A stretch of 64,000 bases of DNA from contig NZ_CP045489.1 in NCBI RefSeq assembly GCF_009392895.1, positions 1 to 64,000 on the forward strand, written 5' to 3'. The notes under the pieces are model-generated. The model was not told the DNA's origin and made no database searches. It saw only the letters and a list, made by a program, of their open reading frames with translations. The translations under genes were made by a program, and so were the position numbers. Shown one piece after another: positions 7,736-51,850 of the stretch. Numbering within the stretch: position 1 is the stretch's first letter; each line of letters starts with the position of its first letter. Origin of the DNA: Natronorubrum aibiense (GTDB lineage: Archaea; Halobacteriota; Halobacteria; Halobacteriales; Natrialbaceae).

Positions 7736-7760
7736 GCGCCTGTTCAGCCTATAACTCCCC

Positions 7761-8424: not shown

Positions 8425-8430
8425 TCCATA

Positions 8431-9809: not shown

Positions 9810-9838
9810 CTGGAAGACCATTTGATACCGTCTCCTAT

Positions 9839-9977: not shown

Positions 9978-10045
9978 GTCGGATCAAGAACTCTCGTGAA
10001 CCACATAGCCTACTTACCTGCTTTCACTAGTCCCTTGAAAACGAG

Positions 10046-10775: not shown

Positions 10776-10942
10776 ACTATATGTCAGCTAATACACTATG
10801 ACACCCCCCGAAGATTCTCTTCTGCTGCCAAGTCGATATCGTTTAAGGATATTTTCATTACTGCTTAAAATAATATATTTGAGTATTTCCTCCGGAAATA
10901 CGGTGTGTCTCTCGCTCCATAGCGTTCCGTGTCATCGGTCGA

Positions 10943-11134: not shown

Positions 11135-11224
11135 TGCCAATCGTCGAGACACCTGTATCGCCACTCATCACACTACTGTTTTCAGTAAACCGTTGTTATC
11201 CAGTTCCACCGACCCAAATGAGGA

Positions 11225-11548
11225 CTAACTCTCCGAATCGACTGGACCTTTGTACTTCGACTTAATCTTCTCACCCTCTCTCCACTGCCAGTAGTAGTAG
11301 CGATTGTCGTTGATCTCCTTCACCGTGATCGTTGCCTTCGATGGGACATCATCCGGAAAATCCTCTGATCGCTCTTCGACCACCTCGTTCTCTTCGTTTT
11401 CTGTTAGTCGTGCCTCTCGCTCACGGTATTCAGCGAGCTCTTTGGAGTACCTAGCGACGTGCCGAAGGAGTTTGGGCGAGAAATCGTCAAATGTTTCGAG
11501 GATGCCGGTGGGAAGTTCTTGCGGGGGTGTCGGTGGCTCACAGGACAT
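11225..11548 (-). CDS. Haloarchaeal DUF6788-like protein (107 aa)
   Basis: MSCEPPTPPQELPTGILETF, a charged helical middle (YSKELAEYREREARLTENEE), and a C-terminal strand-rich module KATITVKEINDNRYYYWQWR followed by EGEKIKSKYKGPV. This resembles the DUF6788 module of small haloarchaeal plasmid proteins, a hypothesis from memory. It is a single gene with no operon partner in range. Function unknown. Confidence 0.6.
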   Translation of the reverse strand: MSCEPPTPPQELPTGILETFDDFSPKLLRHVARYSKELAEYREREARLTENEENEVVEERSEDFPDDVPSKATITVKEINDNRYYYWQWREGEKIKSKYKGPVDSES

Positions 11549-11697
11549 GGTAACTCAATCTGTGTTAACCAACAAAGAACGTCAACAGTATAATGCCGTT
11601 GGTTAAGAATGTTCCTTGTCGTTCTCTCTCAACTCTCTCTTCTGGAGTAACACTACTCGAAACTCATTTATAAATAGGTTACGTACTATGTTACAAC

Positions 11698-33231: not shown

Positions 33232-33233
33232 AG

Positions 33234-33479
33234 TCAGGTACTCACGAATATATCACGAGCGACCGGACTAGCAACCCGCGCCAGCGCCCCGTATCCGACG
33301 TACAGCACGAGTGCTTCAGCCAGCACGTACCCGACCGTGGCAGCAGCCTGCCCGGATTCACCGAGGACGGGAGCGACTAGGAGGACGCTCAGGGTTACCA
33401 CCGCTATACCCAGTAGTACGACCCAGCTTGTCGATAACCGGGGCCCGATGGCCGGGGATTCCGCATCCCAATCAGTCAT
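33234..33479 (-). CDS. Small membrane protein next to TauE (DUF7512-like)
   Basis: About 81 residues from the ATG at 33479 (MTDWDAESPAIGP); an upstream ATG at 33521 lies inside the oxidoreductase gene and is not favoured. Two hydrophobic helices: SWVVLLGIAVVTLSVLLVA and TVGYVLAEALVLYVGYGAL, followed by ARVASPVARDIF. The last part resembles DUF7512, a small haloarchaeal family that commonly sits beside TauE genes. It overlaps the oxidoreductase stop by 8 nt. Confidence 0.7.
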   Translation of the reverse strand: MTDWDAESPAIGPRLSTSWVVLLGIAVVTLSVLLVAPVLGESGQAAATVGYVLAEALVLYVGYGALARVASPVARDIFVST

Positions 33480-34905
33480 GGCACATCCCTCCGTCGGCCT
33501 CAGCGCTTCCGGACGGCGCAATGTTCTGATTGAGGCTGAACAGATTCGTCGGATCGTACTCGTCTTTCAGGGCGACTAACCGCTCGTACGTCGGTCCAAA
33601 CGTGGTCCGCATCATGTCGTCGCCCTCTTCGAGGAATCCCGGGAAGTTCAGGTACACCGAGCCGTCCGAGAACTGGCGCATGTCGTCGAGACAGTCGCGC
33701 ACCCACTCGACGTTCGCATCGTCGTCCTTCAGGCGCTCCCAGTTCGCTTCGACGCCGAGCAGGAAGGGAGCGTGCCGCCCCGCGAACGCGCTGTCTTCGA
33801 CGTCCACCCGTTCGATCGCGCCACCCAACTGCCAGACATCGACCGTCGAAAGCGGTGACGGTGCCACATCGGTCCAGTACGCGATTCGATCGATGGCGGA
33901 GTCCGACAGACTGTCGAGGTACAGCGATTTCCAGTAGTAGCGCATCCCGTCGGGGTAGTCCTCGTCGAAGAGTTGCTGAAACTCCACGTACGGCATCGAC
34001 CCGCTGAAATCGACGATCGGCTCGTCGATCTCTCGCAGCGGCCGCAGCGCGCGCTCGCCATCCTCGACCGACCCAGCGTAACAGCCTGCGATTGCTATTT
34101 TAGACTCGTGTACCGCGTCTGCTGGGAAGAGGTCCTCGTCGGGCATTACACCAGATAGGGTAAGCAAGCTGACTTCCGGGGGCGCATCAGCGACGTAGTC
34201 ACGGTAGGTTTCCAAGACCTCAACCATCCGGTCGGCCGGATAGAACACGAGGCAAATCGCTACGTCCGGGCCGACGGGATGGAGGTCGAACTCGAAGCCA
34301 GTGACCACGCCGAAGTTGCCGCCGCCACCGCGAAGCCCCCAGAAAAGCTCCGCGTTCTCGTCTTCGCTGGCGGTCAGGTAGTCGCCGTCTGCCGTGACCA
34401 GATCGACAGATGCGAGGTTGTCACAGGTCAAGCCGTGCTTGCAGCGGAGATGACCGATGCCACCACCAAGCGCCAGTCCCGCGATCCCCGTTTCCGAGAC
34501 GGCCCCACCCGGCGTTGCGAGACCGAACGCCTGGGTTTCGTGGTCCACGTCTGCCCACGTGGCACCAGCTTGGACCCACGCTGTCTGCGCGTCGGGGTCT
34601 ACCCGGACACTCCTCATCTCGGAGAGGTCGATGACGAGTCCGTCGTCGCAGACGGCAGTTCCCGCGACGTTGTGGCCACCACCGCGAACCGCCACCAGCA
34701 GATCATTCTCGCGCGCGAAATTCACCGCGCTGATGACGTCGCCGACGCCCTGACATCGGGCGATTAGAGCCGGACGTTTGTCGATCATCCCGTTCCACAC
34801 TGCACGCGCGTCGTCGTAGTCGGTGTCGTCGGGACGGATCAGATCGCCGTGGAATCCGGCTTCGAACTGTTCGATCTGTTCGGCGGGGATCGAGTGTTGT
34901 GCCAT
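33472..34905 (-). CDS. FAD-binding oxidoreductase (berberine-bridge-enzyme-like)
   Basis: About 477 residues, PCMH-type FAD domain. VGDVISAVNFARENDLLVAV then RGGGHNVAGTAVCDDGLVID (the histidine is the usual site of covalent FAD), AGATWADVDHETQAFGLATP, GIAGLALGGGIGHLRCKHGL and TCDNLASVDLVTADG. The C-terminus ends with the BBE motif region EYDPTNLFSLNQNI. Start MAQHSIPAEQ at 34905 is preferred over 34944. It oxidises an unknown, perhaps sugar- or phenol-like, substrate. First gene of the operon with DUF7512 and TauE; divergent from the FilR1-type regulator. Confidence 0.87.
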   Translation of the reverse strand: MAQHSIPAEQIEQFEAGFHGDLIRPDDTDYDDARAVWNGMIDKRPALIARCQGVGDVISAVNFARENDLLVAVRGGGHNVAGTAVCDDGLVIDLSEMRSVRVDPDAQTAWVQAGATWADVDHETQAFGLATPGGAVSETGIAGLALGGGIGHLRCKHGLTCDNLASVDLVTADGDYLTASEDENAELFWGLRGGGGNFGVVTGFEFDLHPVGPDVAICLVFYPADRMVEVLETYRDYVADAPPEVSLLTLSGVMPDEDLFPADAVHESKIAIAGCYAGSVEDGERALRPLREIDEPIVDFSGSMPYVEFQQLFDEDYPDGMRYYWKSLYLDSLSDSAIDRIAYWTDVAPSPLSTVDVWQLGGAIERVDVEDSAFAGRHAPFLLGVEANWERLKDDDANVEWVRDCLDDMRQFSDGSVYLNFPGFLEEGDDMMRTTFGPTYERLVALKDEYDPTNLFSLNQNIAPSGSAEADGGMCHD

Positions 34906-35045
34906 ATAGAAGTGGACGGCAGCGCGGGTGTTGGCCTCACCCATCGAGCAGCATTCGGCATCGAGAGTGCCGTTTCAGGCGGTGAGACGAATTTCGGACC
35001 GGGCACGGGATAGAGTTACTATCAGTGCTTCCCTCTGTATAGAGA

Positions 35046-36198: not shown

Positions 36199-38706
36199 TC
36201 AATCGTCGTCGCTCGCTCGTTCCCGCTTGGCAAACGTCGATTCCGGACCAGAGAGATCCCGAATAGAACGATCCGTCCACGTGTATGGAACATATGGTTC
36301 GTCATCAACGTCGAGCCACGTTTTATGTCCCCGCGTGTGGCTGTCCCACATTGGTCGGAGGCCGGAATCGAACCGGTTCTTAAGTGATTTCTGTGCCTGT
36401 TCACTGAGGTCAAACTCAAAATTGTCTGATAGGTCCCAGAATTCACGGAAGAAGGTGGCGAACTGTTCGCTCATTCGCATACTGCTCTCGTAGGTCTTTT
36501 TTACGTCGTCGATGAGGTCGTTCTGGTTACGAATGCGCTCACGTTCTTCATCATACCATTCAGAGACTGGCTGTGCCTTCGCGGTTCGCTCTGTGCGCAT
36601 TTCTCGGCGACGTGTCTCGGTCGCTTCCTCATCGAGTTCCCACTCGCCTTGCACTGCGGAGTTGTGTTGAGCTTCGTCGTCGACTTTCTCGACAACGACT
36701 CCGTAGGCGTCTTCGGCGTGTCGGGGAAGGACATACCCATCGTGGATGTCTTCAAGGACGTCTTCAGGGTTGCGTTCCAGTGGATCGCCTAGTCCCGAGC
36801 CACCGCGGAGGTAGTTCAGGTACATGTCGTAGTCGTCGAACTCCTTTGGCGTGCTAATACCCTCCGGCCGGCGGGCGATCTCGCCATCGATCTTCGACTC
36901 GAAGTCGCCGCTCTCGGGGTCAAGGTCGTGCTGTGGGTAGTCCTCCTGATTTTCGAAGCGTTCCTTGAGGTCAGTATCTTGAGCGTTGAGGATGTAGCCT
37001 GACGCAGCAGGATAGCCACCGAAGAGGCCACCATCGCTGGTCATGTAGCCGTTGCCCATTTCGTAAAGGAGCCACCTGCTGACGTCCTTGACCGTTCGCA
37101 TGGACTCAAAGCCAGCCCCACCTGCCCGACGCCCCACACCGCCGGTATTCGGTTTGACGGCCCGCCCGAGGAATGGCAGCGGTTCGACCATCTCCCACGC
37201 TTCGGCGTCACCCATATCGCCCTCGGGGTTCCATACTGCCGACGCGTGTGGTTCACCGTCCTCGACGTAGCGGGCACCAACACCTTCACAGGCAGACTCG
37301 AAGGAATTGACAGCGTGTAGTTTGTCGAATTGGTCGATGCCGCCGCCCTGGAGCCAGTTCGACGTGTTGGCGTTGCCAGCGTTGATCTCCTCCCAAAAGC
37401 CGCGAGCGAAGTACCCTCGCGAGAGGTGTTGCCAGAGCGGTGCCCACGCTGACACGAGGAAATGCCAGGCGTAGGCGTGGGCTGTCTCCGTGTTCTGGGT
37501 ATTGGCCCACGAACCGACCGGCAGGTGGAAGTCACAGGCGTAGTAGGCACCGTCGTTGACCAACTCGTTCGGGATGACCGTCTGCGTGAGCATCACCCAG
37601 ATCCCGCCCTGGATTGCGGCCGGCGTACAGTTGAATGGGTGCCAGCCCCACTTGTTGGCGCCTTCGAAAGAGACCTGAAACGTCCCGTCTTCTCGAATGT
37701 GGAGCTCCGAGGGGGCGTGCATGATGTGGTTCTCTTGGGCGTACTCGCGGGTGACGTTTTTCTGGCCTTCGTAGAGTGCATCGACAAAGGAGGCACCGCG
37801 GTACGTGCCCGGAAGCATCGTTCGCTTGATGCGGTTTCGGAAGCCACGGCGCCCGTCCTCGACGGCCTCTCGGGCGAGTTGTTTGAACGTCTCTACCCCA
37901 TGTTCGTCGATCATCGCTTTGACCGACTGTCGGACCATCAGACAGCCGGTCATCCGAGTCCGCTCGTCGAGTTTGAGGAAAGTCGGTGTCCGCGTTTTGG
38001 CAGGATATTCCTTCTTCCAGGAGTTGTAGAGCTCGAAGTTCTCGCCGATCTTGCGGGCCGTGTAGTAGGCACCATCGCCGAAGCGAGACGCTTGCGAGAC
38101 GTTCATGCTTCCTGGGCCGATCGCACCAGTGTCGATGACGTGATTCACGCCACCGACCCAGGCGATGAGTTCACCCTCATGGAAGATCGGCATTATCGTC
38201 ATGAGATCACACGGATGCACGTCGCCGACGTGGGGATCATTATTAACGAAGATGTCGCCGGGCTCGATCCCGGGGCTCTCTTCGTAATCGTGGTTGATCA
38301 TGAACTTGATCGCCTCGCTCATCGTGTGGACGTGCACGATGATGCCCGTCGAGACGGCGATCGAGTCGCCCTCCGGAGTAAAGAGGCCGTAGCACAGCTC
38401 ACCCTCTTGCTCGACGATTGGCGTTGCGGACACTTCCTTCGACGTTTCGCGTGCCGTCACGAGGTCGCCACGGAGGCGCGCGTACAACTGCTCGTATCGG
38501 ATCGGATCCTCGTCTTTCAACGTCAACTTTGACAAGCCACAGTAGTGGTCGGTTGCTTCCGTCTTATCCTCGAGTTCGGCCAACTGCTCGCGCAGCGTTC
38601 GGCCGTTCCAGCCGATGCCTTCTCCTCGTCTTTGTTTCTCTCGGACTGCTTCTTTCTCACGTCGTGCTTCGGCGCGTCGGTCGTCAGCGTGATCAGACGG
38701 ACTCAT
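36199..38706 (-). CDS. Acetone carboxylase alpha-like subunit, second copy (HyuB family)
   Basis: 835 residues, roughly four fifths identical by eye to the alpha subunit at 42675-45197. HyuB hallmarks: EGDSIAVSTGIIVHVHTMSE, FVNNDPHVGDVHPCDLMTIM, GAIGPGSMNVSQASRFGDGA and WLQGGGIDQFDKLHAVNSFE. It differs mainly at the two ends. It has no beta or gamma partner of its own and is last in the cluster, 75 bp after the stress-protein gene. It could give an enzyme form with another substrate range (for example butanone or an aromatic ketone), or be a spare copy. Confidence 0.85.
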   Translation of the reverse strand: MSPSDHADDRRAEARREKEAVREKQRRGEGIGWNGRTLREQLAELEDKTEATDHYCGLSKLTLKDEDPIRYEQLYARLRGDLVTARETSKEVSATPIVEQEGELCYGLFTPEGDSIAVSTGIIVHVHTMSEAIKFMINHDYEESPGIEPGDIFVNNDPHVGDVHPCDLMTIMPIFHEGELIAWVGGVNHVIDTGAIGPGSMNVSQASRFGDGAYYTARKIGENFELYNSWKKEYPAKTRTPTFLKLDERTRMTGCLMVRQSVKAMIDEHGVETFKQLAREAVEDGRRGFRNRIKRTMLPGTYRGASFVDALYEGQKNVTREYAQENHIMHAPSELHIREDGTFQVSFEGANKWGWHPFNCTPAAIQGGIWVMLTQTVIPNELVNDGAYYACDFHLPVGSWANTQNTETAHAYAWHFLVSAWAPLWQHLSRGYFARGFWEEINAGNANTSNWLQGGGIDQFDKLHAVNSFESACEGVGARYVEDGEPHASAVWNPEGDMGDAEAWEMVEPLPFLGRAVKPNTGGVGRRAGGAGFESMRTVKDVSRWLLYEMGNGYMTSDGGLFGGYPAASGYILNAQDTDLKERFENQEDYPQHDLDPESGDFESKIDGEIARRPEGISTPKEFDDYDMYLNYLRGGSGLGDPLERNPEDVLEDIHDGYVLPRHAEDAYGVVVEKVDDEAQHNSAVQGEWELDEEATETRRREMRTERTAKAQPVSEWYDEERERIRNQNDLIDDVKKTYESSMRMSEQFATFFREFWDLSDNFEFDLSEQAQKSLKNRFDSGLRPMWDSHTRGHKTWLDVDDEPYVPYTWTDRSIRDLSGPESTFAKRERASDDD

Positions 38707-38781
38707 AGCTTGCTGAGTGTTGTTTTGGTTCGGTAAACTGGTGTTCGTGGGCCAATTCGGGCTTGCAACTGTCTCGTACAG

Positions 38782-39180
38782 TTAGTCACCATACTCGAGT
38801 TCCTCCAGAATGATCGCGTGTTCGCCGACGACGAAGTCGCCGGAGATATTGTCGTGGAGCAGGATCGACTGTGTCAGATCGTCTATCCGTGCCTTGCCGG
38901 TCAGCGTTCGGTCGGAGATGCCGATACAGATTCTATTCGCGTTGTATTCAGTCGCGAACTCGACGAGCGTGGATACGTCGTATCCCTCGGGAAGGGGATG
39001 AATAGTGTAATCGACGCTGTAATTAATCATGGGATTGACTTCCTGGATGAGCGATCCGAGACATTGGACAGTCGGTAGTCGGAGAAAGTGGACGCGTTCA
39101 CCTGCATCGACGACCGAACCGAGAATCTCTCGGACAGACGAGTGATCGTCGGCCGATTTGATGATGATGATCGTCGTCAT
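38782..39180 (-). CDS. UspA-like small protein
   Basis: 132 residues starting MTTIIIIKSADDHSSVREIL at 39180. The start codon overlaps the stop of the HTH gene (ATGA), which rules out the longer frame up to 39495. The fold pattern (strand, helix, long loop, then DVSTLVEFATEYNANRICIG and a final HDNISGDFVVGEHAI) resembles the universal stress protein family; the ATP-binding G-2x-G-9x-G(S/T) is only partly kept. It probably has an accessory role in the cluster. Confidence 0.65.
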   Translation of the reverse strand: MTTIIIIKSADDHSSVREILGSVVDAGERVHFLRLPTVQCLGSLIQEVNPMINYSVDYTIHPLPEGYDVSTLVEFATEYNANRICIGISDRTLTGKARIDDLTQSILLHDNISGDFVVGEHAIILEELEYGD

Positions 39181-39857
39181 TCTTGGGGACCGAAGAGCAG
39201 TGCACAGAAGTTGTGCTCGACACGGCGAAGGCGTGCGGACAACGTCGAGCGACTGATGTCCAATTCGCTTGCGATCTCCTCCGCTGTCACTTCTTGTGGC
39301 ACCTTGAAATAGCCCATCTGATAGGCCGTCTCTAGTACCTCCAACTGTTCTTCTGACAACTTCCCGGTCATGCTCTGCTTGATTTTGTTGCCTCCGAGCG
39401 GAAAGCCGATACTTTCGGTCTGGGTCGACCCGAGCAACTCGAGTGAGTCGTGTTCCGTTTCGATCGCGTCGGCCACCTCCTTGAGATGGTTCCAATCACG
39501 AACGGACGCCATCACCTCGAGATGCGCGTTCTTTCCGACGATTCGATGTGGGATCGCCTGTTTTTCGGTCAGCAGCGACAGAACGGAGGCGTCAGAAAGG
39601 TGTGCCATCACACCGAGATAGTAGATATGACGGTTCAGTTCCGCTCGTGTGATGTCGACTATCTCTATGCTTGACAATTCTTCCGATAACCGTTCTGCTG
39701 TGACTTTAGAATCAAATTGAACTGATAAGAAGAGGAATACCATGTCTCCCGAGACCGGCAGTGCATTGTCAATTTCGGTGCTTTTGACTGGCTCGTCAAT
39801 ATCGAACAGGTGTGACGAGATCCCCGCTAACTCGATCTGAAATTCTATTCGAAGCAT
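39177..39857 (-). CDS. HTH_10 (Bat-type) regulator
   Basis: 226 residues. The N-terminal ~150 form a Bat-like sensor module; the C-terminus is the HTH_10 domain LSEEQLEVLETAYQMGYFKV then EVTAEEIASELDISRSTLSA, the usual signature of bacterio-opsin-activator-like haloarchaeal regulators. It sits inside the acetone carboxylase cluster, coupled to the Usp-like gene, so it is the obvious candidate regulator of the pathway, perhaps responding to acetone or redox state. Confidence 0.85.
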   Translation of the reverse strand: MLRIEFQIELAGISSHLFDIDEPVKSTEIDNALPVSGDMVFLFLSVQFDSKVTAERLSEELSSIEIVDITRAELNRHIYYLGVMAHLSDASVLSLLTEKQAIPHRIVGKNAHLEVMASVRDWNHLKEVADAIETEHDSLELLGSTQTESIGFPLGGNKIKQSMTGKLSEEQLEVLETAYQMGYFKVPQEVTAEEIASELDISRSTLSARLRRVEHNFCALLFGPQE

Positions 39858-40086
39858 CTCTTCAGCGCGGTCCTCTACAGTCCCCTGTCACGAACGCAGT
39901 TACTCCCACACCTCTCATCGATGTACTGTCACGAATGTTTGCAGGCATCGATTAGCGTTCGCTGACTGCTGTCTCTTCTGTTACCAGTACGAGATCCAAT
40001 AGATACAGTATTGTTGGCAATTGCCACGGCTGTAGGTATCATATGCCAACCTTCTATAAAAACCCATACCATTTCAACAATTCCAA

Positions 40087-40509
40087 TCAACTCATTGTCA
40101 ATTTCTCCTCGCGCTCGACGAGTTCTATTCGAACTCCATTGGCGGCTTGTCGCTCAAGGAACGCGACGGACGCGTCTCCCGCACCCTGACGCGGCGTTTC
40201 GTCTGCAAGGGCCACGCCAGCACTCCGTAACTCGGCCAGTTGGCTCTCGAGATCGTCAACGCGGAACGCGATATGGTGTAGCATCGCCGTCTGGTCTGCC
40301 GCCTCGAGGTCGGCTACGAGGTCAGTGGTCGGATCGACCGGTTCGACGAGTTCAACCAGGCTCTCGCCGACGCGAATGAAGGCGATCTCGACGCCGAACG
40401 ATGGCACCTCTTCGATCGCGCCGACCTCGAGACCAAGCTGTTTGAACAACACTCGGTTCTGTTCAATGTCGTCGACGAGGATGCCGAGATGATCGATCTT
40501 GGAAACCAT
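40087..40509 (-). CDS. VOC-family protein (methylmalonyl-CoA epimerase-like)
   Basis: 140 residues, two glyoxalase-like halves: MVSKIDHLGILVDDIEQNRV (metal-ligand His7) with SLVELVEPVD, and MLHHIAFRVDDLESQLAELR with GVRIELVEREE. The His/Glu spacing fits methylmalonyl-CoA epimerase and lactoylglutathione lyase relatives. It follows the acyl-CoA synthetase gene by 2 nt, so the substrate may be a CoA thioester of the pathway. Confidence 0.8.
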   Translation of the reverse strand: MVSKIDHLGILVDDIEQNRVLFKQLGLEVGAIEEVPSFGVEIAFIRVGESLVELVEPVDPTTDLVADLEAADQTAMLHHIAFRVDDLESQLAELRSAGVALADETPRQGAGDASVAFLERQAANGVRIELVEREEKLTMS

Positions 40510-40511
40510 CG

Positions 40512-42089
40512 TTAACTGATCTCCCGTGACTGATCGTCCCAGTAGGGTTCGCGGAGTCGCTTCTTGTCGAGTTTGCCGTACGGTGTTGTCGGGAGTTCGT
40601 CGACGACGTCGAACGATTTCGGGCGTTCGTAGTCGGCAAGCCGATCAGCACAGAACGACTCGAGATCGGCACGGTCAATCGTGGTGCCGGCCGGGACGGC
40701 GACGGCCTTGACCGCCTCACCCCACTCGTCGTCCGGGACGCCGATGACAGCAACGTTCGCGACGTCTGCGTGTTGCTGGATGACGTCTTCGACGGTGACC
40801 GAGTAGACGTTCATCCCGCCGCTGATGATAACGTCGGAGTCGCGGTCGACGATGTATACGTATCCCTCTGCATCTCGCTTGCCGATGTCGCCGGTGTGTA
40901 TCCAGCCGTTGTCCATCGTCTCGGCGGTCTTCTCTGGCAGGTCGTAGTACCCCTTCATGGAGTACGCACCGCGGACGAGGATCTCACCCGGCTTCCCGGG
41001 CGAGACTTCCTTGCCGTCCTCGCCGACGACTTTCACCTCACACATCGCGGTCGGGAGCCCACACGAGGAGAGCCGTTGTTCGTCGTCGGGGTCGTGCGCC
41101 GCCTTCGGTAAGACGGTGATGAGATCCGGCGTCTCGTACTGGCCGTACAGTTGCACGAAGACGTCGCCGAGTTCCTCGAGGCCCTCGCGTAGCCGCGCCG
41201 GTTTCATCGGAGCTGCCCCATAGACGAGCGTCTCGAGCGACGAGGTGTCGTACTCCTGTTCGGCGAGGATGTCGAGGACGCGGTAGATCATCGTCGGGAC
41301 CATAAACGTCCACGAGATGCCTTCGAGTTCGATCGTTTCGAGGGCCCGTTCGGCATCGAACCCCTGCGTAATGACGTGGGTACTCCCCTGTGTCAGGCCA
41401 CCCGCCATAATGAGACCAGCCGAGTGGGGAAGCGGCGTCATCAACAGGAGGTCGTCCCGCGGCCGAATGTCGAGTTCGATCGCGTGTGCCAGCGCGTTCA
41501 GCGCGAGGTTCTCTTGAGTGTGCTTCACACCTTTGGGGTCGCCGGTCGTCCCGCCCGTGTGGAAAACTCCGGCCAGAGTGTCCGTCGACACGTCGACGGC
41601 CGGCGGTTCCGGGGCCGTTGTCTCGAGGAGGTCTTCGAGTCGCTTGACGCGAGTGTCGTCCGCCACAGCAGGCAGAGCCGTGGTATCAATGGTGACGATA
41701 TGGTCCAGCGACGGCACGTTCGGGGCGACCGTCTGGATCATCTCGCTGAACGTTGGGCCGACGATGACGGCACTGGCGTCGCTGTTGTCGAGCATGTACT
41801 CGATGTCCCCCGCCGACAGCATATCGTTCAACGGAACCTTCGCGAGCCCCGCTCGAGCGAGCGCGATATCCGCGATGGGGTACTCGAGGCGATTCGAGAG
41901 CAAGAGCCCGACCCGATCCTCCGGTTTGAGACCGAGATCGACAAGCGCGTTGGCAAGCCGTGCCGAACGATCGTCGAGCGCCCCATAGGTAAGCGTCTCG
42001 CCCTCGAACGAGATGGCTGGTGCCGTCTTGTACCGACGGAGCACTGAGTCATAGAGCTGCTTGAGCGTCGGTGTGTTTTTATCTAGCAT
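40512..42089 (-). CDS. AMP-forming acyl-CoA synthetase, probable acetoacetate/short-chain activator
   Basis: 525 residues, ANL superfamily. P-loop FHTGGTTGDPKGVKHT (about 172-187), A5-type YGQYETPD, HTGDIGKRDAEGYVYIVDR and SGGMNVYSVTVEDVIQQHAD, and the C-terminal catalytic lysine in TPYGKLDKKRL. It makes acyl-CoA via acyl-AMP. Lying 54 bp after the carboxylase gamma gene, it most simply activates acetoacetate, the carboxylase product, to acetoacetyl-CoA. Substrate assignment rests on context only. Confidence 0.85.
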   Translation of the reverse strand: MLDKNTPTLKQLYDSVLRRYKTAPAISFEGETLTYGALDDRSARLANALVDLGLKPEDRVGLLLSNRLEYPIADIALARAGLAKVPLNDMLSAGDIEYMLDNSDASAVIVGPTFSEMIQTVAPNVPSLDHIVTIDTTALPAVADDTRVKRLEDLLETTAPEPPAVDVSTDTLAGVFHTGGTTGDPKGVKHTQENLALNALAHAIELDIRPRDDLLLMTPLPHSAGLIMAGGLTQGSTHVITQGFDAERALETIELEGISWTFMVPTMIYRVLDILAEQEYDTSSLETLVYGAAPMKPARLREGLEELGDVFVQLYGQYETPDLITVLPKAAHDPDDEQRLSSCGLPTAMCEVKVVGEDGKEVSPGKPGEILVRGAYSMKGYYDLPEKTAETMDNGWIHTGDIGKRDAEGYVYIVDRDSDVIISGGMNVYSVTVEDVIQQHADVANVAVIGVPDDEWGEAVKAVAVPAGTTIDRADLESFCADRLADYERPKSFDVVDELPTTPYGKLDKKRLREPYWDDQSREIS

Positions 42090-42143
42090 AATCTGTCACG
42101 TGATGATCGGATCGTACAGAACGGAAAGGAATCTCTCAGGAGA

Positions 42144-42659
42144 TTACGCCGACTCGGGCTCCGCCGTCGGGATCGGCTCCTCGATCCACTCGCTGTAGAA
42201 CGTCTCGATGTCGGGCTCGAACTCGTGGATGAGCGGATAGCCCGGCATGACGTTCGTCACCTCGAGCAGTGTGTTACAGCCCGGACAGAAGAACTCCCGA
42301 AGCTCCATGTAGTCCGGGTGGGGGTGCATGTCCTCGGGGTAGATCTCGAGGTAGTCCTCTTCGGAGTCGCGGACGTTGATGAGTGCATCCATCTTCCAGT
42401 TCTGGTCGTGTTCGCAGAACTCGTGGCCACAGTCGCACTTGATGACCCATCTGTTGTCCGGTTTTGCGACCACGTACAGATGGTCCGCGTAAGGGATGAT
42501 GATCGGGTCGTCCCAGTCGACCCGTTCTTGCAGGACGTCCCGGACCTGCTGGAACCGATCCGCGTCCTTGAAGTCACTCATCATGTCGTGCAGCTGATTC
42601 CACTCGAGGTTGTCGTCGACCAGGTCCTCGATGTGTTCGCGTGGGTATGATTCTGGCAT
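42144..42659 (-). CDS. acxC: Acetone carboxylase gamma subunit
   Basis: 171 residues, the length of known gamma subunits (about 168). Cysteine/histidine-rich metal sites: VIKCDCGHEFCEHDQNWKMD and REFFCPGCNTLLEVTNVMPG, then YPLIHEFEPDIETFYSEWI, which is characteristic of the Acetone_carb_G family. This subunit separates acetone carboxylase from hydantoinase/oxoprolinase relatives that share the two large subunits, so it decides the functional call. It lies 15 nt after the alpha gene. Confidence 0.9.
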   Translation of the reverse strand: MPESYPREHIEDLVDDNLEWNQLHDMMSDFKDADRFQQVRDVLQERVDWDDPIIIPYADHLYVVAKPDNRWVIKCDCGHEFCEHDQNWKMDALINVRDSEEDYLEIYPEDMHPHPDYMELREFFCPGCNTLLEVTNVMPGYPLIHEFEPDIETFYSEWIEEPIPTAEPESA

Positions 42660-42674
42660 TGGTAGTACCTCGTA

Positions 42675-45197
42675 TTAGTCGTCGTCTGTTGCTGGTTCTG
42701 CGGTCATGTCATTGAACGATGCATCGGGCGTTGGCAAGTCTTGAATCGTCCGGCCGGCCGTCCAAGTGTAGGGCACTTCCGGTTCGTCATCGCGGCCGAC
42801 GTCGAGCCACGTCTCGTGGCCCTTCGTCGGATTGTCCCACTTCTGTTTGAGACCAGTCTTGAATCGGTTCTCGAGGGATTTTTCCGCTTTCTCGCTCAGC
42901 GTGAATTCGAAGTCCTCGGGCAGCTCCCAGAACTCGTGGTAGAACTCGGCGAACTGCTTGCTCATCCGCATGCTGCTCTCGTAGGTCTTCTTGACGTCGT
43001 CGATGAGGTCCGTCTCGGTGCGGATGCGATCGCGTTGTTCCTCGTACCACTCCGTGACCGGCTTGGCTGTCTCGGCGCGTTCTTGCATCCGCTCTTCACG
43101 TAGTTCCTTGGTCGCCTCTTCGTCGAGTTCCCACTCGCCTTGCACCGCGGAGTTGTGCTTGGCCTCGTCGTCGACCTTCTCAACAACGACGGCGTAGGCG
43201 TCCTTGGCGTGCCGGGGGAGAACGTATCCATCGTGAATGTCTGCGACGACGTCCTCGGGCTCACGCTCGAGGGGATCGCCCAGTCCCGAGCCACCGCGGA
43301 GGTAGTTCAGGTACATGTCGTAGTCGTCGAACTCTTTTGGCGTGCTTATCCCCTCCGGCCGGCGGGTGATATCGCCGTTGATTTTGGATTCGAAGTCGCC
43401 GCTCTCGGGATCGAGATCGTGTTGTGGGTAGTCCTCTTGATTCTCGAAGCGTTCCTCGAGATCGGTGTTCTGCGCGTTGAGGATGTACCCTGACGCGGCA
43501 GGATAGCCACCGAAGAGGCCGCCGTCGCTGGTCATGTAGCCGTTGCCCATCTCGTAGAGGAGCCACCTGCTGACGTCTTTGACCGTTCGCATGGACTCGA
43601 AGCCAGCACCACCTGCACGACGACCCGCACCGCCGGTGTTTGGCTTGACAGCCCGTCCCAGGAACGGCAGTGGCTCGGTCATCTCCCAGACCTCGGCGTC
43701 GCCCATGTCACCTTCGGGGTTCCAGATCGCCGCGGCGTGGGGTTCGCCGTCCTCGACGTAACGCGCGCCGACGCCCTCACAGGCAGACTCGAAGGAATTG
43801 ACAGCGTGTAGTTTGTCGAACTGGTCGATACCGCCGCCTTGGAGCCAGTTCGAGGTGTTGGCGTTCCCGGCGTTGATCTCCTCCCAGAAGCCGCGCGAGT
43901 AGTACCCTCGCGAGAGGTGTTGCCAGAGCGGTGCCCACGCCGACACCAGGAAGTGCCAGGCGTAGGCATGGGCGGTCTCCGTGTTCTGGGTATTGGCCCA
44001 CGAACCGACCGGCAGGTGGAAGTCACAGCTGTAGTACGCGCCGTCGTTGACGTTCGAGTTCGGGATCACCGTTTGGGTGAGCATCACCCAGATCCCGCCC
44101 TGGATTGCCGCGGGCGTACAGTTGTACGGATGCCACCCCCACTTGTTGGCGCCTTCGAACGAGACTTGGAACGAGCCGTCTTCGCGAACGTGCAGTTCCG
44201 AGGGAGCATGCATGAGGTGGTTTTCGTCCGCGTACGCACGGGTCAAGTTGTCCTGTCCCTCATACAGCGCGTCGACAAAGGAGGCCCCGCGATAGGTGCC
44301 GGGCAACATCGTTTTCTTGATGCGGTTCCGGAAGCCCCGGCGCCCGTCCTCGATCGCTTCACGCGAGAGTTGTTTGAACTGCTCGACGCCGTACTCGTCG
44401 ATGATATCTTTGACCGCATCGCGGATCATCAGACAGCCAGTCATCCGCGTTCGCTCGTCGAGCTTCAGGAAGTCCGGCGTCCGCGTCTTGTCCGGGTAAT
44501 CTTTCTTCCAGGAGTTGTACAGTTTGAGATCTTCGCCGACCTTGCGGGCCGTGTAGTAGGCACCGTCTCCGAAGCGAGACGCCTGTGAGACGTTCATGCT
44601 TCCCGGGCCGATCGCGCCGGTGTCGATGACGTGATTGACGCCCCCAGCCCAGGCGACGAGCTCCCCCTCGTGGAAGATCGGGATGAGCGTCATGATGTCG
44701 CACGCGTGGACGTCACCGACGTGGGTGTCGTTGTTGACGAAGATGTCACCAGGCTCGATGCCGGGACTCTCCTCGTAATCGTGGTTGATCATGTACTTGA
44801 TCGCCTCGCTCATCGTGTGGATGTGCACGATGATCCCCGTCGAGACAGCGATCGAGTCGCCCTCCGGGGTAAAGAGGCCATAGCACAGCTCACCCTCCTG
44901 CTCGACGATCGGTGTCGCGGCGACCTCTTTCGAGGTTTCACGCGCGTTCACGAGGTCGCCACGGAGCTGGGCGAACATCTGCTCGTATTCGATCGGGTTG
45001 TTCTGTTTCAGCTCAAGTTTCTCGAAGCCGGCGTAGTGTCCCGTCTCTTCGGTTTCTTCCTCGAGGGCTTCGAACTGTTCGCGAAGCGTCTGGCCGTCCC
45101 AGCCGATGCCGACACCCTCCTGCTGTTGTTCTCGGACTGTTTCCTTCTCGCGTCGCATCCGGGGGAAGCTTTCCCCTTCGTCTGGTTCCGTGCTCAT
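42675..45197 (-). CDS. acxB: Acetone carboxylase alpha subunit (HyuB family)
   Basis: 840 residues. Contains GLFTPEGDSIAVSTGIIVHI, FVNNDTHVGDVHACDIMTLI, GAIGPGSMNVSQASRFGDGA and LPVGSWANTQNTETAHAYAW, as in acetone carboxylase alpha. With the beta and gamma chains it carboxylates acetone with bicarbonate, using ATP hydrolysed to AMP, to give acetoacetate. It is placed between the beta gene (144 bp upstream) and the gamma gene (15 nt downstream). A paralogue at 36199-38706 has the same core. Confidence 0.9.
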   Translation of the reverse strand: MSTEPDEGESFPRMRREKETVREQQQEGVGIGWDGQTLREQFEALEEETEETGHYAGFEKLELKQNNPIEYEQMFAQLRGDLVNARETSKEVAATPIVEQEGELCYGLFTPEGDSIAVSTGIIVHIHTMSEAIKYMINHDYEESPGIEPGDIFVNNDTHVGDVHACDIMTLIPIFHEGELVAWAGGVNHVIDTGAIGPGSMNVSQASRFGDGAYYTARKVGEDLKLYNSWKKDYPDKTRTPDFLKLDERTRMTGCLMIRDAVKDIIDEYGVEQFKQLSREAIEDGRRGFRNRIKKTMLPGTYRGASFVDALYEGQDNLTRAYADENHLMHAPSELHVREDGSFQVSFEGANKWGWHPYNCTPAAIQGGIWVMLTQTVIPNSNVNDGAYYSCDFHLPVGSWANTQNTETAHAYAWHFLVSAWAPLWQHLSRGYYSRGFWEEINAGNANTSNWLQGGGIDQFDKLHAVNSFESACEGVGARYVEDGEPHAAAIWNPEGDMGDAEVWEMTEPLPFLGRAVKPNTGGAGRRAGGAGFESMRTVKDVSRWLLYEMGNGYMTSDGGLFGGYPAASGYILNAQNTDLEERFENQEDYPQHDLDPESGDFESKINGDITRRPEGISTPKEFDDYDMYLNYLRGGSGLGDPLEREPEDVVADIHDGYVLPRHAKDAYAVVVEKVDDEAKHNSAVQGEWELDEEATKELREERMQERAETAKPVTEWYEEQRDRIRTETDLIDDVKKTYESSMRMSKQFAEFYHEFWELPEDFEFTLSEKAEKSLENRFKTGLKQKWDNPTKGHETWLDVGRDDEPEVPYTWTAGRTIQDLPTPDASFNDMTAEPATDDD

Positions 45198-45341
45198 GGT
45201 GTATTCGTATTGATTTCGTCACATCTGCTCAGAGCCAGATGCGGGCTCGTACAGTGCACCTGCCACACCGGTTGACCGAACTCGAAAGCGGCGGTCACGG
45301 AGACGGGCAGATGCATCTCCGTACGAAAGCGGTTTTCCGCG

Positions 45342-47513
45342 CTATTCGATCGTGGTGAGGTGGTGGACACGGTGTTCGTCTAACCGGGTCTCACAATCCG
45401 GTGGCAACGCGTACGTCGTGGCAGCGCCCTCGAGGATCGCTGGGCCGCTGAGTTCGTTTCCGGGCTGGAGTGCGTGTAGGTCATAGATCTCTGTGTCTAG
45501 CCACTCGCCGTCCCAGTAGGCCTCCCGCGTCTCTTTGTAGGCGTCTGCGGGTGGCTCCGGTCCCTGTAGCTCCTCGGTCGGAATCTCTGGCTTGACAACG
45601 TCCCGGACACCGCGGACGGATGCCTGCGTGATGGTGTGTCCGAGCTCCGGCGAACGGGCCTCTTCGGAGTACTGTCGGCGGTACCCCTCTTCGAAGGTAT
45701 CCAGCAATCGCTCGAGTTTCTCCGGCGAGTCGACGCGGCCAACCGGGGACTCGATGTCGATACTGTTGAGCTGGCCCTGGTACTGGCCGAGGATGTTGTA
45801 CTGGAACTCGATTTCATCGCGGCCGATGTTACTGTTCTCGAACTCGTTTTCGACCTTCTGCTCGAGGTTCTTCCAGACCTCCGTAAGCGCCTCGCCGGCG
45901 GTCGCCGCTGCCTCTTCCATCGAGAGATCGGGATCGATGTCGATACTGGTCGTCTGGTCGTAGCGGTACTCGTAGTCGGCTGCGCCGCAACCAAACGCCG
46001 AGAACCCGGCCGCCCACTCGGGGATCAGCACTTCGTCGAAGCCCAGATCCTTCGTGTATCCGGCCGTGTGGACTGGGCCGCCACCGCCGTAGGAGAGACA
46101 CTTGAAGTTCGACGGCGCGTAGCCTTCGCCGGTCACGACGGCCTCGAGGTCGTTTCGAAGCTTGCTCTCGAGGATATCGATGACGCCTTGGGCCGCCTCG
46201 TAGACGCCCATATCGAGCGGATCGGCGATCTGTTTTTTGATCTCCTGTTCGGCCACCTCGCGGTCGATCGGCATGTCGCCACCCAGGAAGTTCTCCGGAT
46301 TGATCCAGCCCATCGCCACGTGGCAGTCGGTCACCGTCACCGTCTCGACGTCGGTTTCGACCGCGCTGACACCGACCTGATCACCGGCGCTTTCTGGACC
46401 GAGTTCGATCTTGTCGAAGGTGGGGTTCACCCGGACGTAGCTGCCCGTCCCAGCACCGACGCTTTCCATGTTCACCATCGGCAGCGATAGGAGCAGCCGC
46501 GCCATCTCCGGGCTGTAATCGATCTGCCAGTCGTTGTCGATGATGATGCCCATGTCGAAGCTGGTCCCGCCGATATCGGTACAGACGAGGTTGTTGTAAT
46601 CAAGTTTCTGTCCGAAGTAGTTCGCCCCGATCATCCCACCAATCGGCCCGGAGATCAGTGTCCGTGCCAACTCGTTCGCGTTGATGTCGATCGTCCCGCC
46701 GTGGCTCGCCATCACCCGCACACCGACGTTACCGCCCTGTTCGTCGACGGCCTCCTGGATGTTCGAGAGTTGGTCGCGTGATGGCTCAGCAGCGAACGCT
46801 TCCGCAGTCACCGTGTTCAGCCGTTCGGACTCCTTGAGCGTCGGGTAGTACTCGCTCGAGAGCATGACCGACGTCTCTGCCCCTCGCTCGTCGATTATCT
46901 TACGGGCGATTTCGGCGGTTCGGTGTTCGTGCTCTCCGTTCCTGTAGGAGTGGAGGAACATGACGACGATATGGTCGACGCCCTGGTCGAGTAGGTCGTC
47001 GACGCCCTCGCGGACGTCGTCTTCGTACAGCGGCACCAGCGTGTTCCCCTTGACGTCAATACGCTCTCGAACGCCGCGGATCCGATTGCGCGGGATCAGC
47101 GGCTCGGGGTGTTTGTGCGTGTTGACGTGGAGTCGATCCGAATAGGAGTAGCCGGTGTACGATTGGCGGCCACGTCCCATCCGAAGGGTGTCCTCCATCC
47201 CGCCAGTGATGAGGATGCCGACGTCGACCTCACTTTCCCGCTCGACCAGTCGGTTGAGCATCGCCGTGCCGGAGTAGACCGTCGAGACGAGGTTCGGGAA
47301 ACCCTCTTCGACGCTCAACCCCCAGTCCTCGAGGGCATCCTGAGAGGACTTGATGAATCCCCGTGATTCGTCGTCCGGCGTGGTTTTCGCCTTCCCCACG
47401 GTAAAATCGCCGTTCGAGTCCATGAGGAACGTATCCGTCATCGTGCCGCCAGCATCGATCGACAGGATTTCTGCATTGTGTTGTGCTGTGGGATCGTCTT
47501 CTGAACTTGCCAT
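45342..47513 (-). CDS. acxA: Acetone carboxylase beta subunit (HyuA family)
   Basis: About 723 residues, close to the 717 of Xanthobacter AcxA. ASKHA-type nucleotide fold: ILSIDAGGTMTDTFLMDSNG at the N-terminus, ISGPIGGMIGANYFGQKLDY with CTDIGGTSFDMGI about residue 310, and LSYGGGGPVHTAGYTKDLGF near 480. The start MASSEDD at 47513 is preferred over 47531 because GGAGGTG lies just before it. It phosphorylates acetone and bicarbonate during the reaction. First gene of the cluster. Upstream 47532-47600 holds the promoter region. Confidence 0.9.
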   Translation of the reverse strand: MASSEDDPTAQHNAEILSIDAGGTMTDTFLMDSNGDFTVGKAKTTPDDESRGFIKSSQDALEDWGLSVEEGFPNLVSTVYSGTAMLNRLVERESEVDVGILITGGMEDTLRMGRGRQSYTGYSYSDRLHVNTHKHPEPLIPRNRIRGVRERIDVKGNTLVPLYEDDVREGVDDLLDQGVDHIVVMFLHSYRNGEHEHRTAEIARKIIDERGAETSVMLSSEYYPTLKESERLNTVTAEAFAAEPSRDQLSNIQEAVDEQGGNVGVRVMASHGGTIDINANELARTLISGPIGGMIGANYFGQKLDYNNLVCTDIGGTSFDMGIIIDNDWQIDYSPEMARLLLSLPMVNMESVGAGTGSYVRVNPTFDKIELGPESAGDQVGVSAVETDVETVTVTDCHVAMGWINPENFLGGDMPIDREVAEQEIKKQIADPLDMGVYEAAQGVIDILESKLRNDLEAVVTGEGYAPSNFKCLSYGGGGPVHTAGYTKDLGFDEVLIPEWAAGFSAFGCGAADYEYRYDQTTSIDIDPDLSMEEAAATAGEALTEVWKNLEQKVENEFENSNIGRDEIEFQYNILGQYQGQLNSIDIESPVGRVDSPEKLERLLDTFEEGYRRQYSEEARSPELGHTITQASVRGVRDVVKPEIPTEELQGPEPPADAYKETREAYWDGEWLDTEIYDLHALQPGNELSGPAILEGAATTYALPPDCETRLDEHRVHHLTTIE

Positions 47514-47609
47514 CGACACCTCCAATACCATGTGGTAAGTTAGTCATTATCACGAACCCGGGTGGACAAGGATGACAGCCCACGACATGCGCTGACATAT
47601 GTTTCCGAT

Positions 47610-48799: not shown

Positions 48800-50330
48800 A
48801 GACATGTAAACGACCGCGGGCGCGGTGGCCCGCGGCTTTTGTAGTTCCCTCAAGTTTAGCTGTGAAGCACTCCCTGTGAGGCGATCTCGTGGGATGAGGT
48901 TGGACGGTTTACGTCCACGCCACCACAAGAGGTGGTGGTGTGGCGTCCCGACCCGACCCGGCGCACCCGCACTTGAGGCGGGGTTTTGCGAGGTCGGTAG
49001 TTATCCGCGCTGCTGTGACTGTCATCGCCAGTCTCTGTTTTCGCAATCCATCGTACCGCAGCATTCACCGACGCGTTTCGATCCGAGTGATCTTGCTTGA
49101 GAGCACACGTATCGTTTTTGCACGTGAACCGTCCACCGTTTCGAGAGCCTTTCTCGCCACACATCGAGCAACGCTGTGAGTTATACTCGGAATCGACATG
49201 CTCGACCGGAGCGCCGTGACGGTGGACTTTGTACGTGACTTGCCGTTCAAACTCGTGGAACGGCAGCTTGTGCAATCGGCGGTTCATATAGCTACCGTAG
49301 TCGATGTCGTTGCGAATGCCTTCGAGCGACTCAAACACCACAACCGGGTTCGGGAACCATTGTACGTAGTGTTCGATGACTTTGCTGAGTCGGTGTAGCG
49401 TCCACTCAGTAAAGTTCTCGACGTGGTTTCCGATTCGATGAACTTCGCTGTGTTTGCCGTGTTCCTGGCAGCGACGTTTGATGTCGTAGTATCGCTGGCG
49501 CTTTTGCTTTACTTGGCCGTAATCGATGGTGAGTTGCGCGAGCGTTTCACGCGACTCTCGGTCGAGAACGGTGGTGGTGATGTTGCGTTCGTTGATGTCG
49601 ATGGCGATGACTGACTCTGCGTCTTCCGCAGCGTCAATTGTGATGGGGTGTCGTATCGGGACGTGTAGGTAGTACACGCCCTCTCGATACACAACCTCAG
49701 CCCGACCCACCTCTAAATCACTCGCGGAATCTAGCGCATGCTTGACGCGATCAAGATCCTGTTTTGCCCCGCGAAGAAACCCACGTACCTTCTCCTTGTA
49801 TGGCTGGGCACTGATGCGATAGCCAACACGGTTGTCGTCACGAACTTGCAGTTCGTATCCTTCGCTGTGGTTCATAACGAGCGGGAACGCTCCCCATGAA
49901 TCAGTCGACGGCGGCTGTGGCTTCGGTAACTCGTCGCGGTTGTCGCTGTTACGCCACTTCTTCAACGCACTTTCGTACGCGTCGTAAGCGTCACAAGCTT
50001 TCCACACAACGGCTTGTGCGTTATTTTTCACGAAGTCATTCTCGGTCGGCATGACTTGCTTTGCAATCTCGGTCTTACTGTATCCGAGTTCACGCATTGC
50101 CCAGGTGTGATTAGCGATGGGCCGAGCGTCGAACCGAGCCTGTTTGAGACGCCAGCGCTCCCCACTCTCTATGTGGAGGCGGAAACGTAGCGTCTCAACA
50201 AGCTCATCCATCGTTACATCTAACTCATCAGACCAATTCAAGTTAAAACCACGCACCAGCGCGACGTGGGTTGCTCATTAAGTCGACGGCATTCACCCCC
50301 GGGCACGGTGGCCCGGGGTACTCTGCCTGC
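48800..50330 (-). mobile_element. IS1341-type element 4 (tnpB only)
   Basis: Right end: hairpin CCGCGGGCGCGGTGGCCCGC GG at about 48815-48837. Left end: hairpin CCCGGGCACGGTGGCCCGGG at about 50299-50318. The two hairpins share the loop GCGGTGG/CACGGTGG. It is arranged head to head with element 5, leaving about 150 bp between their left ends. Confidence 0.7.
48856..50256 (-). CDS. tnpB: TnpB RNA-guided nuclease (element 4)
   Basis: 466 residues, complete. RuvC aspartate VIAIDINERNITTTVLDRES (about 225), glutamate VVVFESLEGIRNDIDYGSYM (about 300), zinc finger CSMCGEKGSR...CKNDTC and final aspartate HSDRNASVNAAVRW. The N-terminal region has an HTH-like SKTEIAKQVMPTENDFVKNN. It is longer than the other TnpBs here and belongs to another branch. 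Possibly active; guide RNA expected around 48800-48900. Confidence 0.88.
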   Translation of the reverse strand: MRGFNLNWSDELDVTMDELVETLRFRLHIESGERWRLKQARFDARPIANHTWAMRELGYSKTEIAKQVMPTENDFVKNNAQAVVWKACDAYDAYESALKKWRNSDNRDELPKPQPPSTDSWGAFPLVMNHSEGYELQVRDDNRVGYRISAQPYKEKVRGFLRGAKQDLDRVKHALDSASDLEVGRAEVVYREGVYYLHVPIRHPITIDAAEDAESVIAIDINERNITTTVLDRESRETLAQLTIDYGQVKQKRQRYYDIKRRCQEHGKHSEVHRIGNHVENFTEWTLHRLSKVIEHYVQWFPNPVVVFESLEGIRNDIDYGSYMNRRLHKLPFHEFERQVTYKVHRHGAPVEHVDSEYNSQRCSMCGEKGSRNGGRFTCKNDTCALKQDHSDRNASVNAAVRWIAKTETGDDSHSSADNYRPRKTPPQVRVRRVGSGRHTTTSCGGVDVNRPTSSHEIASQGVLHS

Positions 50331-50344
50331 TTTTATTATAGAGA

Positions 50345-51850
50345 CGCTTGCGCTTGCTTCAACTGATGCGGTAGCGCGGAGTCCCCTTCCTCAAAGAACG
50401 AGCGAAGCAAGTGAGTAGGGAGGAGCGCGTTCGTATAGGGCACAAATACCAACCTAGAAGAAGCCGCTTGCCTACATTGAATACGTGGTGGACGACTACG
50501 TGTGTCGGACGGCAATCACCTGCCTCTCGGTAGACGGTGAGCAACGCGAGTTGCTTGAGGAAACTATCTCCGAGTGGAAGCGTGGTTGCCAAATCGCCAC
50601 GGACATGGCGTGGGGCAAGTGTAACACAAAAAGCGACGTACAGCCCCTCGCCTACGACGACGTGCGCGAACACACCGACCTCGGTAGTCAGCACGCGATT
50701 CTCGCCACCCACCAAGCCGCACAAGCAATCACCGGCTGTATCGAGCGCCGGTCCAAAGGCAAGAAAGTCAGCAAGCCCACGTTCACCGCACCCACGGTGA
50801 AATACGACACTCGGACCATGACACTGTTCGATGACGGCACAGTCTCTCTCTCCACAACGAAGAGTCGTGTCCGGTGTGAACTTGCTCTGCCCGACGCCGA
50901 TGATGGCTACCAACGGCAGTACCTCGACTCGGACACGTGGAGCGTCACGGAAAGTACGCTCACCACCCGTGACGGCGACTACTTCTTGCATATCGGCTTT
51001 CGCCGACCCAAGAACGACACCGAGCAGAACACCGCCGAGGACGGAACGGTCCTCGGGGTTGACCTCGGTATCGAAAATCTCGCCGTCACAAGCACCGCCT
51101 ACTTCTTCAGCGGGCGAGAGTCAACACACGACCTCCGCGAGTTTGAGAAGGTACGTGCCGGACTCCAACAGACCGGGACGCGAAGCGCCCACCGGACACT
51201 CGAACAGTCGAGTGGCCGGGAACTTCGATATATCCGTGACGTACTCCACCAAGCGTCCAACGCGATTGTGGATGAAGCACTCCGATACGAGTGCAACGTG
51301 ATAGCGTTCGAGGACTTAACCCACATCCGCGACCGCACGGGAGCGTCGTGGGGTCACAGGTGGGCGTTCCGAACGCTGTACGAACAGGTGAAGTATAAGG
51401 CCGAAGCGGAAGGCTTCTCGGTGAAGCAAGTGGGTTCGGCGTACACATCGAAGCGGTGCGCCGAGTGCGGATTCACGGCTGGCGAGAATCGCTCGACTCG
51501 CAACGACTTCCGATGTGTGAATTGCGAGTCGGAAGCGAACGCGGACTACAACGCAGCGAAGAACATCGGTATGCGGTATGTCCGCCGGGGCCAACAGTCG
51601 TCTCGACGGACGGGCAACAGTCAACTTGCCCTGAAGTCTGGGACTGTGACGCCGAGTGGCGGATTCACCGCCCACCCGGAAGGGTTTGACGCCGAGTCCA
51701 CGGACAAGTTCCACCCTCAAAGCGCCGAAGGCGCTTAGGATGGGGTAGTTGACAAGGAACCTGGTAGTTTGAGTGTTCGTCATACTGGAGAGGCCACGGA
51801 GATTTTTGAGATATGGTGAACCGCCTCGGGGTCAAGCCTCAAGGCACTCA
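50345..51850 (+). mobile_element. IS1341-type element 5 (tnpB only)
   Basis: The left region starts near 50345 (repeated GCTTGCGCTTGC). The right region after tnpB has hairpin AAGCGCCGAAGGCGCTT (51718-51734) and GCCTCGGGGTCAAGCCTCAA GGC (51820-51842). The latter hairpin recurs as a remnant at 30903-30940. Its right end abuts an origin box (51893) of the third orc gene. Confidence 0.6.
50485..51738 (+). CDS. tnpB: TnpB RNA-guided nuclease (element 5)
   Basis: 417 residues from GTG 50485 (tandem GTG GTG; either could serve). RuvC aspartate VLGVDLGIENLAVTSTAYFF (about 190), glutamate VIAFEDLTHIRDRTG (about 270), zinc finger CAECGFTAGE...CVNCES and final aspartate ANADYNAAKNIG. It is of the type in which the frame ends with a basic and serine-rich tail overlapping the guide-RNA region. 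It looks intact. Confidence 0.88.
   Translation: MVDDYVCRTAITCLSVDGEQRELLEETISEWKRGCQIATDMAWGKCNTKSDVQPLAYDDVREHTDLGSQHAILATHQAAQAITGCIERRSKGKKVSKPTFTAPTVKYDTRTMTLFDDGTVSLSTTKSRVRCELALPDADDGYQRQYLDSDTWSVTESTLTTRDGDYFLHIGFRRPKNDTEQNTAEDGTVLGVDLGIENLAVTSTAYFFSGRESTHDLREFEKVRAGLQQTGTRSAHRTLEQSSGRELRYIRDVLHQASNAIVDEALRYECNVIAFEDLTHIRDRTGASWGHRWAFRTLYEQVKYKAEAEGFSVKQVGSAYTSKRCAECGFTAGENRSTRNDFRCVNCESEANADYNAAKNIGMRYVRRGQQSSRRTGNSQLALKSGTVTPSGGFTAHPEGFDAESTDKFHPQSAEGA

Follow-up and report, generated by a model that had tools for sequence, protein, structure and literature searches.

A conserved structured RNA containing an H-type pseudoknot lies between the beta and alpha1 genes of a Natronorubrum aibiense cluster that, on good support, encodes a haloarchaeal acetone-type (short-chain ketone) carboxylase and carries a second, derived alpha gene. 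The reading favored here, and considered fairly probable, is that the RNA is a cis element setting the output of alpha1 and gamma, and that alpha2 is a second, differently regulated subunit of the same carboxylase.

The window (the whole 64,000-nucleotide stretch analyzed) comprises bases 1-64000 of a 431-kb contig in a genome of 4.35 Mb. An Orc1/Cdc6 gene at 51944-53185 suggests that the contig is a plasmid. The eight genes that an earlier note had placed on one strand are all present on the minus strand. The first, beta (HyuA-like, 45342-47531; PF01968, PF05378 and PF19278), is a 729-aa ORF that probably starts at residue 7, from which its orthologues align; this start, 47513, is also the cluster end given in the note. 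It is followed by alpha1 (HyuB-like, 840 aa, with a metal site, 42675-45197; PF02538), gamma (171 aa, with a Zn site, 42144-42659; PF08882), an AMP-forming acyl-CoA ligase (525 aa, 40512-42089; PF00501 and PF13193) and a VOC protein (140 aa, 40087-40509). After a gap of 229 nt come a BAT/HTH_10 transcription regulator (226 aa, 39177-39857), a small conserved protein (132 aa, 38782-39180) whose ATG overlaps the regulator's stop, and alpha2 (835 aa, 36199-38706).

The G+C content is about 54-61% across the cluster and about 50% at the window ends. Two genes for TnpB-like RNA-guided nucleases (48856-50256, minus strand, and 50485-51738, plus strand) lie just upstream of the cluster and adjoin the Orc1/Cdc6 gene. 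Downstream of alpha2, at 32242-34944 on the minus strand, are a TauE/SafE permease and a BBE/FAD-binding oxidoreductase; the flanking regions examined in related loci yielded no homologues of them. An alignment of 24 loci identified conserved boxes upstream of beta (47532-47603, minus strand), namely AACATATGTCA (~47593-47603) and TTCGTGATAATGACTAACTTACCAC (47532-47556), and the spacing between AACATATGTCA and TTCGTGATAAT..TAACTTA varies across these loci. The boxes probably represent a promoter/operator or a leader. TTCGTGA-like repeats also precede the HTH_10 gene in Natrinema-type loci.

Comparison of the subunits with PDB by phmmer places all of them nearest to the acetone carboxylase of X. 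autotrophicus. The E values against this enzyme and against acetophenone carboxylase are 3e-232 and 2e-107 for beta, 2e-243 and 1e-37 for alpha1, 1e-252 and 1e-38 for alpha2, and 7e-49 and 1e-7 for gamma, a difference of about forty to more than two hundred orders of magnitude in all four. The genome encodes one gamma and one beta of the acetone-carboxylase type, and the next best HyuA proteins are only 29-31% identical to this beta. Two of its six HyuB proteins are alphas of the acetone-carboxylase type; four other HyuA/HyuB pairs, encoded elsewhere, are distantly related and hydantoinase-type. Acetophenone carboxylase and hydantoinase/oxoprolinase were both rejected as identities, since similarity to them is far lower in every subunit. 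Acetophenone carboxylase Apc (5L9W) belongs to the same superfamily, with distant similarity of all subunits, but it is built from two HyuA-like subunits and one HyuB-like subunit, whereas the cluster has one HyuA-like and two HyuB-like genes and the genome has a single HyuA of this type.

The active-site residues agree with this assignment. The residues that bind the metal in the X. autotrophicus alpha, E89, H150, D153 and H175 (PMC5543143, PMC10865871, PMC12250083), have invariant equivalents in 44 of 44 aligned alphas, both alphas of the cluster included. W401 and W479 of the aromatic patch are likewise invariant in all 44, and the positions of E85, W408 and W438 vary only in two distant outgroup alphas. 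Among the nucleotide-switch residues of beta, F405 and N578 are kept and S391 (X. autotrophicus numbering) is a Thr. The four Zn cysteines of gamma are kept, and its Pfam match (PF08882) has an E value of 5e-43. Homology, operon make-up and active-site residues together support the acetone carboxylase well, and the earlier note, which had made the same call on the strength of gamma, is probably right.

The AcxABC enzymes of X. autotrophicus and Aromatoleum aromaticum (5M45, 5SVB, 5SVC) have the same three subunits with matching core lengths, and they share with the cluster the four metal ligands, F405 and N578 of beta and the Zn cysteines of gamma. Unlike AcxABC, the cluster has a second alpha gene, the intercistronic RNA and an archaeal BAT/HTH_10 regulator, and its alpha carries a C-terminal extension of about 65 residues. 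The neighborhoods of related loci contain a Zn-type alcohol dehydrogenase (in Halococcus dombrowskii), a TIGR00366 short-chain fatty-acid transporter family protein and SDR dehydrogenases, which fits a metabolism of 2-propanol, ketones and acetoacetate.

The acyl-CoA ligase is a candidate acetoacetate activator. It scores 477 bits against NCBIfam PRK06187 (cut-off 476), its closest PDB entry is FadD8, and its sequence places it among FadD-type ligases. The VOC protein had been described as epimerase-like. Its PDB matches are indeed epimerases, but it reaches only 93.9 bits of the 114.95 required by the methylmalonyl-CoA epimerase model TIGR03081, and it was rejected as the housekeeping methylmalonyl-CoA epimerase because a better match, the true epimerase, is encoded on the chromosome. 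The ligase and VOC genes are missing from several related loci, and they come and go independently of alpha2. The HTH_10 regulator, named as such before, matches both PF04967 and PF15915 and accompanies the cluster in nearly every relative. The small protein is 46-86% identical to nine homologues. Its earlier label, Usp-like, refers to a similarity that is present but faint (Pfam Usp at E 0.11 in one of ten homologues, PDB UspA at E 0.007 over 40 residues), so that the protein is at best possibly Usp-like.

Alpha2 is found in about 16 species from some ten genera. Among 391 genomes of the class, 15 encode alphas that share at least ~79% identity with alpha2, while a further five hold nothing closer than a distant carboxylase of ~45% identity. 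Synteny is seen in 17 loci, with the order beta-alpha1-gamma-(ligase-VOC)-regulator-small protein-alpha2 found in Natrinema, Haloterrigena, Natronolimnohabitans, Halovenus, Natronomonas, Salinibaculum, Halorientalis and Halococcus. In one genome (G029) the regulator-small protein-alpha2 block precedes beta rather than following gamma, so these three genes move as a unit. Four distant haloarchaeal acetone carboxylases (G386, G288, G410 and G398) have alphas that are about 45-47% identical and lack a second close alpha; in G386 and G288 the ligase, HTH_10 regulator, beta, alpha and gamma are together, as they are here.

In an IQ-TREE phylogeny alpha1 and alpha2 form separate clades (support 83/82 and 93/100), and several genus-level groupings recur in both. 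The single alpha of locus LUM68 falls outside the two clades (86/78), with moderate support at the duplication node. Where the two clades show fixed differences, LUM68 mostly agrees with alpha1, so alpha2 is the derived copy. By these comparisons, the duplication took place in the ancestor from which most known operons of this type descend, and alpha1 retains nearly all ancestral states. The second alpha of the earlier note, which had proposed the phylogeny as a check, is therefore real, and it belongs to a conserved arrangement that extends beyond this window. The dN/dS values of alpha1 and alpha2 range from 0.02 to 0.075 (about 0.05 for alpha2). Intact frames, dN/dS and the tree reject a pseudogene or a recent tandem copy. 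Being old, constrained and complete in its metal site, alpha2 probably assembles with the single beta and gamma.

The two alpha copies have also recombined. Natronorubrum bangense (L071 ~7600-12470) has beta followed by one alpha, the first part of which is alpha1 and the last part alpha2, and Natribaculum breve (L074 ~7640-12470) likewise has a single alpha1-to-alpha2 chimera behind beta. The crossover points differ, the beta and alpha frames are still open, and gamma was not found in either genome. Recombination between two direct copies would leave such a chimera and delete gamma and everything up to alpha2. The two chimeras are independent of each other. The possibility that these are primitive single alphas was rejected, because they are chimeras in genomes that lack gamma. 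In Haloterrigena sp. H1 and G291, the other cluster genes differ by a dS of 0.06-0.16 and alpha2 by 0.60 (L067 10001-12478; L111 12992-15496), and the H1 alpha2 is nearer to that of Natrinema limicola (dS 0.38). This indicates that alpha2 alleles have been replaced independently of the rest of the cluster.

The RNA occupies 45218-45328 (minus strand) in the 144-nt gap between beta and alpha1. It was not part of the observation in the earlier note, and the conservation of the gap was spotted by comparing upstream regions. An alignment of 23 loci defines two stacked helices, P1 (6 bp, 45319-45324/45249-45254) and P2 (10 bp, 45306-45315/45255-45264, with a variable arm beyond), and an H-type pseudoknot directly after P1 with a purine-rich loop. 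Pseudoknot stem 1 (45244-45248/45232-45236) is GAGCC/GGCUC or CAGCC/GGCUG across loci, and stem 2 (45237-45242/45221-45226) is CAUCU/AGAUG. Some unpaired residues are invariant. The end of the pseudoknot is 11-30 nt from the alpha1 ATG in the loci measured, and many loci have a GC-rich hairpin just past the beta stop. In Halococcus dombrowskii (L129 ~9988-10221) the 3' part of the RNA (P2', P1' and the pseudoknot) is tandemly duplicated within the gap.

Several measures support this structure. Across the 23 loci, 98.7% of the 621 base-pair cells are paired, compared with 21-51% in controls slid by 1-3 columns, and nine pairs have changes on both sides that recur across genera. The covariation score is 0.285 versus 0.186 +/- 0.011 for shuffled alignments, and none of 500 shuffles reaches it; the shuffles leave relatedness uncontrolled, which the slid-column control covers. 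RNAalifold independently recovers P1, P2 and pseudoknot stem 2, and the window sequence has an MFE z of -3.85. The conserved core exceeds the third-codon-position identity of alpha1 in 171 of 171 pairs (0.83 versus 0.57), and the arm loop changes rapidly (identity 0.37). The covariance model scores 104 bits on the sense strand and 15 on the antisense strand, and the G-U pairs occur on the sense strand, indicating that the RNA is read with the operon. A coding or DNA-level feature was rejected: the indels can have any length, stop codons fall in different frames, only one strand shows G-U pairs, and the loop changes fast although the stems are conserved. An alternative pairing of the pseudoknot 3' strand with P2, through a repeated GCAUCUG, is not conserved in divergent loci and was also rejected.

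The distribution of the RNA is restricted to this operon type. In a covariance model search of 391 genomes of the class and 125 of the family, it is present at one copy per carrier genome (15 and 11 genomes, respectively), and the carriers are exactly the genomes with the close alphas. It was not found in those genomes of either set with only the ~45% identical carboxylase; the beta-alpha gap is 16-77 nt in G288 and G386, and G410 and G398 have no match to the model. The element occurs only between beta and alpha and never before other genes; comparison of upstream regions revealed nothing of this kind before alpha2. No copies were found in viral contigs, a plasmid search gave convincing ones only in three haloarchaeal records, and Rfam yields nothing at E values up to 10. 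The RNA was therefore rejected both as an element widespread in haloarchaea and as a member of a known family.

The place between genes, the closeness to the alpha1 start, the single context and the sense-strand G-U pairs argue for cis control or processing rather than a free small RNA, and we propose an intercistronic element that controls alpha1-gamma expression. It is quite possible, though short of probable, that the RNA acts as a signal for mRNA processing or stability, separating the beta message from that of alpha1-gamma, or that it is bound by a protein. Its intergenic position, stable fold and the GC-rich hairpin after the beta stop suit this, but the subunits are needed 1:1:1, so that unequal messages are not obviously useful, and the invariance of some unpaired residues suggests that the element is not just a simple stem. 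A riboswitch for a pathway metabolite or metal ion controlling alpha1-gamma seems somewhat doubtful. The compact pseudoknot with invariant residues, placed directly upstream of where translation of the metal-binding subunit begins, speaks for it, and the H-type pseudoknot is a fold used by several riboswitches. SAM-V and the preQ1 classes likewise place a compact pseudoknot upstream of a start codon, but the RNA here differs from them in sequence, extra P1/P2 arm, intergenic position and single context. One copy per genome in one gene context is unusual for a metabolite riboswitch, which typically, if not necessarily, recurs before different pathway genes, and this distribution gives no hint of a ligand. 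The position is also intergenic, not that of a 5' leader. Around the alpha1 start, the RNA does not visibly mask any Shine-Dalgarno-like sequence, so translational control is not seen directly; in haloarchaeal cells Shine-Dalgarno sequences are not strictly needed.

The role of alpha2 can also be read in several ways. The earlier note suggested that swapping in alpha2 would allow another ketone, such as butanone. This is unlikely: in the published mechanism (PMC5543143) activation of the ketone takes place in beta rather than in alpha, and only one beta is present here. The alpha2 metal site is intact and under strong constraint, and derived changes are fixed beside the metal-switch helix (Xa 79) and beside ligand D153 (Xa 154), as this explanation would want, but the changes are conservative and no feature of the sequence points to a different ketone. 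The epimerase-like VOC protein, conceivable for C4 acyl-CoAs, varies independently of alpha2, as does the ligase. It is improbable to a similar degree that alpha2 makes an enzyme form that prefers another metal (Mn or Fe) or suits another oxygen/metal-supply niche, or that alpha1 and alpha2 pair in a mixed core dimer. The core dimer of the hexamer consists of alphas (PMC5543143), which favors mixing, whereas the first-sphere ligands and the four Trp filter positions are the same in both, which speaks against a changed metal preference. Changed metal preference, different regulation and a mixed dimer are equally conceivable for alpha2. It is very unlikely that the duplication is a transient accident with alpha2 on its way out. 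Alpha2 is lost in several lineages, its frame is broken in Halorientalis regularis, suggesting that it is dispensable, and recombination between the copies disrupted the operon in two lineages. Against this, purifying selection is as strong as on alpha1, and alpha2 persists in about ten genera in conserved association with the regulator.

In the favored mechanism of a carboxylase with a duplicated alpha and cis control by RNA, beta would use ATP to phosphorylate the ketone and bicarbonate, and the intermediates would pass to the divalent-metal site of alpha, where the C-C bond forms, as in the bacterial enzyme (PMC5543143, PMC12250083). By homology, a short-chain ketone would be converted to acetoacetate or a homologue, with acetone giving acetoacetate, and the neighboring ligase would probably make the CoA ester. 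The RNA may set how much alpha1 and gamma the beta-alpha1-gamma transcript yields, acting either on the initiation of alpha1 or through RNA processing and stability. Alpha2, RNA-free and behind its own regulator gene, would be a differently regulated catalytic subunit for the same beta and gamma; only the 229-nt gap before the regulator gene suggests that the regulator-alpha2 part is transcribed separately. More tentatively, it is possible that the RNA is the first member of a new archaeal cis-regulatory class, confined to one carboxylase operon, and that it responds to the catalytic metal or to a metabolite of the ketone pathway by adjusting the production of alpha1 and gamma, with the RNA-free alpha2 as a bypass.

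In the open-access literature, no paper was found that deals with acetone carboxylase in haloarchaea, with duplication of its alpha or with the RNA of this operon, nor on ketone use in hypersaline habitats, which is weak evidence for novelty. To our knowledge, only a few regulatory RNAs have been described in archaea, and hardly any natural elements resembling riboswitches in haloarchaea. The RNA lifts the locus above an ordinary catabolic operon, and because this covarying pseudoknot occurs strictly with one operon, it offers a clean system for studying the working of such elements. With its long-standing pair of catalytic subunits for a single beta and gamma, the cluster likewise allows a direct test of why a carboxylase would keep two metal-site subunits, and the cluster as a whole suggests that ketones are used in hypersaline habitats.
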